From Pseudomonadaceae bacterium (lineage in GTDB: Bacteria > Pseudomonadota > Gammaproteobacteria > Pseudomonadales > Azotimanducaceae): DNA of 64,000 bases. The stretch is from contig JANSXA010000001.1 of assembly GCA_024743175.1 (NCBI GenBank), positions 372,001 to 436,000 of the forward strand, written 5' to 3'. The notes beneath the pieces are model-generated. The model was given only the letters and a program-made list of their open reading frames with translations, did not search any database and was not told the origin of the DNA. How positions within the stretch are numbered: the first letter of the stretch is position 1; each line of letters starts with the position of its first letter. Positions 38,840 to 39,883 of this stretch are shown piece by piece. A program made the position numbers and the translations under genes.

Positions 38840-38950
38840 GCCACTACCCCAAATTAAGTCCCACAGAGTGTGCAACGCATCGGCGAAACGCACAAGTTGC
38901 AGCTACTCAACGGGGTTGCTAACTTGGCACCTCTGATACAAAGGTGTGGT

Positions 38951-39883
38951 ATGCATAGACAAGCGCCGGTTGATTATATTCAGCGTACGAAGGAACAATA
39001 TGATGGCATGGGCTATGCCAGTTATCAGTGGGTGTACAACCCCGACCCGCCGCCTTTCAAGCCGCTGAAAAAGCCGCTTGCTCAGGCCAAACTTGCTCTG
39101 GTTGCATCGGGTGGCGTGTATGTCAGCGGCCAGATAGCCTTTCATTTCAAAGATGACTTCAGCTACCGACAGGTCGACACACAAACAGCGACATCTGCGT
39201 TACGCGCAACCCATTTTGCTTATGATCTGACTGATGCGCGTGCGGATCCGAATGTTGTCTTTCCCATAGAAACGCTCAAACAATGTGATAGTGACGGACT
39301 GATTGGCGAACTCAGCAATCCAGCTTATACGTTCATGGGCGGTATTTATTCCGCACGCAAGGTACGGGACATTCTTGCCCCGGCGCTGGCAGATGCACTG
39401 GAAAAAGATGAAGTTGATGTCGCCCTCATGGTGCCTGTCTGACCCGTCTGTCATCAGTCCGTTGGACTGATCGCCAGAGAGCTTGAATCGCGCGGCATAG
39501 CAACGTTGTCAATGTCCAGCGCACGCTCAATAACCGCGGCTGTTAATCCGCCTCGCGCTGTGTATCTCGATTATCCACTGGGACACACGACAGGCAAACC
39601 TTCCGATCCGAGCAATCAACTGGCCATCATGCGCGATACTCTGGCCGCCTTCGAGCAGATCGATGAGCCCGGCACAATTATCGACCTCGACTACCACTGG
39701 CAGGCTGATGATGGGTGGAAAGATAGTGTCATGCGCCCACAACCCGGTTCTGGGGACAACAGCACGCCCGAGCACAACGATACGCGTACCGAGCGCTACG
39801 ACACGCCTCAGTACCAGAGCGAAGACGACGCAGCTGCGGCGGATCCGCACTGCCCAAGCTGCATCTTTCTGAAAGAAGGATAA
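38951..39883 (+). CDS. Selenoprotein of the glycine/sarcosine/betaine reductase B (GrdB/PrdB)-like family, Sec at in-frame TGA
   Basis: A 310-residue protein if the TGA at 39440-39442 is read as selenocysteine (Sec164). Reductase B-type subunits use Sec to attack a substrate C-N or C-S bond. Before the TGA the frame has VDYIQRTKEQY, GYASYQWVYNPDPPPFKPL, LALVASGGVYVSGQIAFH, a DARADPNVVFPIE block, AYTFMGGIYSARKVRD and DVALMVPV. After it the same frame runs on with PVCHQSVGLIARELESRG, YLDYPLGHTTG and DDGWKDSVMRP to a TAA, and ends in a second redox pair, Cys301 and Cys304 (CPSC). Sec164 and Cys167 form U-x-x-C. A SECIS-like hairpin follows the TGA. I start at ATG 38951 because AGGTG precedes it and VDYI follows. 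Read conventionally it would be two broken pieces. Substrate and partners are unknown. Confidence 0.9.
39440..39471 (+). promoter_or_regulatory. Selenocysteine TGA codon with bacterial SECIS-like hairpin
   Basis: The TGA (39440-39442) is followed by ATCAGTCC-GTT-GGACTGAT (39453-39471): a perfect 8-bp stem with a three-base loop starting with G, 18 nt between the TGA and the loop. This fits the bacterial SECIS rules as I recall them (loop about 16-37 nt from the UGA, G among the first loop bases). Confidence 0.85.

Follow-up and report, generated by a model that had tools for sequence, protein, structure and literature searches.

The closest described systems are D-proline reductase, in which the pyruvoyl group is carried by a protein other than PrdB (PMC10298544), and the GrdB/GrdF/GrdH proteins; PMC5029168 is a further source. 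PrdB-like genes have been reported repeatedly from the sea. The Sargasso Sea survey counted 42 prdB genes and referred to them as D-proline reductase (PMC1088965), the GOS survey reported 235 Sec and 110 Cys PrdB sequences with PF07355 and a UxxC motif (PMC2398784), and proline reductase genes were given as 6.4% of marine selenoprotein genes (PMC9402790). A term search found no mention of prdA in the main texts of the two surveys. In titles and the beginnings of abstracts, from a collection that mostly does not cover subscription journals, we noticed nothing on a missing PrdA or on a CxxC tail of the marine proteins. The initial annotation of the locus described here had remarked on a Sec-containing, reductase-B-like protein in a marine bacterium. 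Such an occurrence is not novel by itself, since Sec forms of 'PrdB' have been present in marine surveys since 2005.

The window, i.e. the whole stretch of DNA analysed (64,000 nucleotides, C7:372001-436000), belongs to a Pseudomonadaceae genome of 4.72 Mb in 18 contigs (98% complete). It contains the following features.

38940..38944, plus strand: AAAGG, a candidate ribosome-binding site 6 nt 5' of the ATG, assigned from sequence alone.
38951..39883, plus strand: predicted PrdB/GrdB-like selenoprotein gene with UGA as Sec164, 310 residues, stop codon TAA (frame, PF07355, TIGR04483).
39440..39442, plus strand: in-frame UGA, predicted Sec164 of the U-P-V-C motif (TGA at this codon in 80/80 relatives).
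39449..39451, plus strand: Cys167, the proposed resolving partner in UxxC (invariant in 55/55 aligned sequences and in 14/14 sequences across subfamilies).
39453..39471, plus strand: bacterial SECIS-type hairpin with an 8 bp stem and a GUU loop (fold and comparative pairing).
39851..39862, plus strand: C-terminal CxxC (Cys301, Cys304), the proposed electron-relay tail (CxxC in 78/81 genes).

Standard ORF calling splits the gene into two (38870-39442 and 39506-39883). The initial annotation had regarded these apparently truncated frames as one, broken by a TGA alone and within the sequence V-P-V-U-P-V-C-H, and both statements were borne out: 38951-39883 is a single 310-codon frame from ATG to TAA, whose sole internal stop, at codon 164, lies in that motif. 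When the halves were compared separately with TIGR04483 (PrdB), the first aligned with profile positions 16-144 and the second with 150-236, in register. The two halves thus cover successive parts of the profile, and were therefore taken to form one protein. The read-through protein matched PF07355 (GRDB) over residues 37-161 with 44.4 bits (Pfam gathering cut-off 22). TIGR04483 was the best NCBIfam match (159.7 bits, E 7.8e-47, residues 32-252), below the equivalog cut-off of 300; two relatives, L017 and L095, scored 171.5 and 160 bits, likewise under 300. The match to TIGR01918 (49.5 bits) was under the subfamily cut-off of 65.45 and began at position 219 of the 431 of the profile.

With each species represented by one genome, a search yielded 112 encoded relatives, 80 of which were retained for counts. 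Their record titles named mostly Gammaproteobacteria or Pseudomonadales; the others included Myxococcota, Acidobacteria, Chloroflexi, Acidimicrobiia, Binatota, Desulfosarcina and Entotheonella. Position 164 had been thought to be the place where this family carries Sec or Cys, and the relatives agree: codon 164 is TGA in every one of the 80, and 16 of the 31 further relatives have a Cys codon there. The frames of the 80 stay open 3' of the TGA, and no homolog was seen to end at this point. In an alignment of 55 of the 81 sequences U164, P165, V166, C167, H168, Q169 and S170 were invariant, and the residues 3' of the TGA were as conserved as those 5' of it. Among 14 sequences from several subfamilies the invariant positions were D99, P105, G119, D156, P162, C/U164, P165, C167 and E179, followed by G182, P201, R202, P209, L210, G211, G215 and W256. 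The terminal stop is also TGA in 40/81 genes; the codon thus has both meanings within one gene and has not simply become a sense codon.

The sel genes, whose presence the Sec reading had called for, were all found. A selA-like gene, selB and the gene for tRNA-Sec are consecutive on the same strand of the window's contig, ~92 kb before the window. The selB match (424.3 bits) was over the cut-off, the selA-like gene directly before it was named from its sequence, and tRNA-Sec (71.7 bits) has the anticodon tca. A selD match over the cut-off (270.9 bits) is located at C7:290569-291483. This selD forms the C-terminal portion of a protein of 725 residues (L103:4477-6654), the first half of which looks, from its sequence, like an NADH dehydrogenase.

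The distribution of the family was compared with that of tRNA-Sec. In 145 genomes of the order the best tRNA-Sec scores were bimodal, at least 63.3 bits in 18 genomes and at most 51.1 bits in the rest, and scores above 60 bits, a line drawn at this gap, were counted as clear. Eight genomes carried the family, with 14 matches, every one of which had the in-frame TGA. All eight were among the 18 tRNA-Sec genomes; the hypergeometric probability of 1.1e-8 (uncorrected) is too small, because it ignores kinship and five of the eight carriers, including the window's own genome, come from one family. Among 397 genomes of the phylum, 17 had a match: 15 contained only stop-free forms and two (G000 and G269) TGA forms. 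Five Cys-form genomes were examined, and four of them (G177, G463, G188 and G329) had background tRNA-Sec scores (44.5-49.7 bits), the fifth (G389) a clear one (77 bits).

Bacterial SECIS elements have been described as hairpins just 3' of the UGA with a G in the small apical loop (PMC1088965). The sequence following codon 164 can form the hairpin AUCAGUCC-GUU-GGACUGAU, in which eight base pairs join 39453-39460 to 39464-39471 around a loop (39461-39463) that opens with G, in agreement with this description. The hairpin with its GTT loop had been noted before as lying 18 nt after the TGA; the structure was confirmed, but the 18 nt separate the TGA from the loop, and the stem begins earlier. 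A 48-nt segment folded with an MFE of -15.1 kcal/mol (z -2.34), and 3 of 200 shuffled sequences folded at least as well, which by itself is moderate evidence for a SECIS. A search with Rfam at gathering thresholds gave no match within the window.

The signal beyond chance comes from the comparative evidence, not from the lone fold. All six core pairs are formed in 75/81 genes and consist of Watson-Crick pairs only in 71/81, as compared with 3.2% and 0.75%, respectively, expected for random synonymous codons at family usage; the remaining 6/81 genes break one or two core pairs. Codon choice in the stem is strongly biased: glycine is encoded by GGA in 76/81 and serine by TCC in 75/81 genes, against 15% and 16% elsewhere in the same genes. 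The Gln and Leu codons occur in the couples CAG+CTG (69), CAA+TTG (10) and CAG+TTG (2), of which the first two represent silent changes preserving one stem pair. When pairs were counted in 79 distinct rows and compared with 500 shuffles, 98.3% of the cells were paired (96.5% in shuffles) and 10 cells had double changes (1.4 in shuffles), all at one pair. Neither value was reached in any of the 500 shuffles, and the covariation score was also above all of them. Stricter measures did not exceed the shuffles (pairs with double changes, 1 vs 0.8; pair types, 3 vs 2.8; both reached in 391/500): double changes are confined to a single pair, and three pairs are invariant throughout. These counts were taken on rows, not on a tree, and related sequences can exceed shuffles without any structure. 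Sliding the partner strand by 1-3 columns reduced pairing to 45% or less. Three further relatives (L115, L116 and L117) have other letters in the stem and the same hairpin at the same place.

The Cys forms were used as a control. Five or six of the six core pairs were present in 14/15 Sec rows (L112 has four), and at most four in 15/16 Cys rows (L137 has five). Four Cys rows (L128, L129, L135 and L140) fold a hairpin at an overlapping place, L128 only weakly. Moreover, a single genus supplies 11 of the 16 Cys rows. The control was thus less clear-cut than expected, and the case for the hairpin leans on conservation among the Sec genes instead. Because the sel genes, the TGA shared by all 80 relatives, the SECIS-type hairpin and the co-occurrence with tRNA-Sec point in the same direction, the UGA at 39440-39442 is almost certainly read as Sec164, as the initial annotation had proposed.

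The protein extends 58 residues past the end of the PrdB profile match at 252 and, following a PQYQ segment, has the sequence C-P-S-C-I-F-L near its end at 310. A CxxC is present within the last 50 residues in 78/81 genes. The exceptions are L087, L095 and L096, the last of which was counted although its contig ends inside the gene; there the gene runs into VSYTHLTLPTN, which we take to be translated adaptor sequence. The absence of the tail from L087 and L095 indicates that it is not indispensable. Among the 31 further relatives two close orthologs, L105 and L106, have the tail and the other 29 do not. In an AlphaFold model (pLDDT 93.1, pTM 0.92) position 164 lies between a strand (157-161) and a helix (165-180). 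The linker 261-280 is uncertain (65-67) and the last 30 residues are confident (88-97); in this model the tail seems to dock. Of two sequence searches for solved relatives one had no match and the other a single chain at E 0.34, taken as chance, and Foldseek against the PDB found nothing at E <=0.001 (best 4.1e-3, TM 0.23). Neither by sequence nor by fold was there a solved protein that would bear out a reductase.

A tree of 72 rows took in 41 of the 81 close genes and all 31 further relatives. The Cys forms fall inside a 25-row branch together with Sec forms, and L105 and L106, both tailed, fall among the window group. Several forks are open: the tail-less L107, which has a long branch and an unsure placement, and the 25-row branch join at the same open fork as the tailed genes. 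One locus whose record is titled Klebsiella pneumoniae MAG (L079) groups with the gammaproteobacterial MAGs L033 and L061, and we suspect a mislabel.

The initial annotation had noticed no prd partner near the gene, and for PF09338, which we take to be the family of the pyruvoyl subunits PrdA and GrdE, this holds genome-wide. The family was found in 0/14 genomes carrying PrdB-like genes, including the window's own, a set without a positive-control match, and in one of 27 further genomes (reached via loci, completeness not given). This one, G546 (Entotheonella), has three PF09338 matches of up to 338.7 bits, and the search therefore works. In total, 40/41 family-carrying genomes are without PF09338. 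A window-type gene is present in 30 of the 41 (G000, G038, G129 plus all of the 27), and PF09338 is missing from 29 of these 30; the remaining 11 have different members of the family. G546 also has a tail-less PrdB-like gene (L095), which by its position is not adjacent to the PF09338 matches. Inspection by eye of the ORFs between 30000 and 50000 of the window revealed none resembling a prd or grd gene.

The gene stands alone; a conserved operon partner was not seen. It converges on nqrF, and on its other flank an enoyl-CoA hydratase-like gene, named from its sequence, points away from it. Around the 80 relatives even the commonest neighbour clusters occurred in 13 loci at most, once the gene, fragments of it and ORFs overlapping it were set aside. 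An MlrC-like (M81) gene, named from sequence, lies directly 3' in L017, L019, L022 and L070. MetY is nearby in G020 (L126), in L038 and in the group L042/L045/L048/L055/L075/L092, three settings in all, with a model match for one of each. As the window gene has neither of these neighbours, they were not used to deduce a function. Among the best 20 of 32 records in a search of plasmid DNA, the matches were only to the adjoining end of nqrF.

Other PrdB-like genes were encountered in different surroundings. The window's own genome has two further Sec genes from two other subfamilies, L102:9018-10199 (C4, ~112 kb) and L118:8798-9649 (C4, ~207.8 kb). The former is prolonged by a long C-terminal segment, and the gene after it, judged by its sequence, encodes a TauD-like dioxygenase, an arrangement also present in L121 from the same genus. 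A more distant, tail-less Sec gene (L126, G020:C2) is divergent from selA-selB-like genes and is followed by genes for a CoA-binding protein and an O-acetylhomoserine sulfhydrylase. Three relatives of the Cys form (L147, L148 and L153), from large genomes that belong to another class, adjoin a CaiB-like CoA-transferase gene, again named from sequence.

The host had been described as apparently aerobic. Three COX1-family matches over the cut-off in its genome fit this description and support an aerobic life; a marine habitat can be inferred from the relatives. The enzyme itself is presumably oxygen tolerant.

On the basis of its sequence, the protein with its UxxC and tail would be a member of a CxxC-tailed group in the PrdB/GrdB family, which we propose here. 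With moderate confidence we favour the reading that it is an intact selenoprotein and a stand-alone, Sec- and dithiol-dependent reductase with its own CxxC tail as electron relay. The motif, the tail and the chemistry of the family suggest the following scheme. SelB and Sec-tRNA would insert Sec164 by read-through of the UGA, as in the known bacterial pathway, and the protein would work alone as a dithiol-dependent reductase. Sec164, which the model places just past a strand where a helix begins, would attack or reduce a small substrate and finally be bound to Cys167 as a selenenylsulfide. This bond could then be reduced by the C-terminal Cys301-x-x-Cys304, which would itself be re-reduced by a thioredoxin-type donor. 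With no pyruvoyl group, the Schiff-base chemistry proposed for D-proline or glycine reductase would not be usable. It is this missing partner that suggests an uncharacterised reaction.

An unlikely but serious competitor is a general thiol-disulfide or peroxide reductase, in which the targets of Sec164 and Cys167 would be oxidants or the disulfides of proteins, without cleavage of any carbon-heteroatom bond. The combination of a UxxC at a helix start, as modelled, with a CxxC tail resembles thiol oxidoreductases, there are oxidases in the genome, and a table footnote of the GOS survey places PrdB among the homologs of thiol-based oxidoreductases or Trx-like proteins (PMC2398784). However, many residues beyond the redox motif are invariant (R85, H88, Y126-S134, P209-G211), which suggests a specific pocket for a small molecule, and the CoA-transferase-like gene beside the three Cys relatives suggests metabolism. 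Reductive C-S or C-N cleavage of a small compound from the sea, the sulfur or nitrogen of which would supply, for example, the nearby MetY pathway, appears improbable. C-N bond cleavage is known for GrdB/PrdB relatives (PMC10298544), and MetY is close by in the three settings mentioned above, but it is within reach in only 7/80 loci, and 0 to 3 such genes over the cut-off were counted per genome in the ten genomes checked. Moreover, this neighbour was chosen after looking, and none was seen by eye beside the window gene.

That, in line with the published label 'proline reductase PrdB', the gene encodes a genuine subunit of D-proline (or glycine) reductase that operates together with a pyruvoyl protein is very improbable. 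TIGR04483 is indeed the best NCBIfam match, the UxxC motif is common to both, and the surveys class marine UxxC proteins with PF07355 as proline reductase. Against this stand the scores of the window protein and of L017 and L095, all far from 300 bits, the lack of PF09338 in the window's own genome and 39 other carriers (it was found in the 41st), and the lack of any prd- or grd-like ORF seen in the inspected part of the window. Finally, a true stop at the TGA (in a pseudogene, between two short proteins or through a sequencing error) has only the standard codon tables in its favour and is hardly credible beside the same TGA with open frames beyond it in every retained relative, the equal conservation of the residues after it and the conserved hairpin; a sequencing error in particular is very unlikely with this TGA recurring in 80 other loci.

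Under the favoured reading of a stand-alone, tail-relay reductase, the name of a leading marine selenoprotein group comes into question. We offer it as a tentative idea, more doubtful than the reading itself, that 'proline reductase PrdB' is functionally wrong for this group, and that it comprises separate selenoenzymes, pyruvoyl-free, oxygen-tolerant and equipped with a tail relay, which reductively cleave a widespread marine substrate. If the group is typical of the 'proline reductase' genes in the oceans, a major use of selenium there would rest on a yet-unidentified reaction, and the current name would imply reduction of an amino acid requiring a partner that the genomes seem to lack. Given that the CxxC tail is conserved and the pyruvoyl family missing, the question is directly testable with one purified protein.

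Compared with the known systems, the similarity to GrdB/GrdF/GrdH (PF07355, TIGR01918) is a distant match to their C-terminal half; the window protein differs in scoring under the TIGR01918 cut-off, in matching only the later part of that profile and in having no PF09338 in its genome. With TIGR04483 PrdB it is homologous over residues 32-252 and shares Sec in a UxxC motif, as described for PrdB (PMC13188914, PMC9312934), but it reaches only about half the equivalog cut-off score, carries 58 extra residues with a CxxC, and occurs in a host with terminal oxidases and without PF09338. The marine 'PrdB' proteins of the Sargasso Sea and GOS surveys resemble it in PF07355 (GOS table), the UxxC motif, the marine origin and the commonness of the Sec form, and differ in that they were named after D-proline reductase. 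The window family and these proteins are probably the same, a match made by description and not by sequence. As judged from the profile scores and gene content, the protein is thus a variant within a known selenoprotein family, one that fails the tests made for the function assigned to that family.
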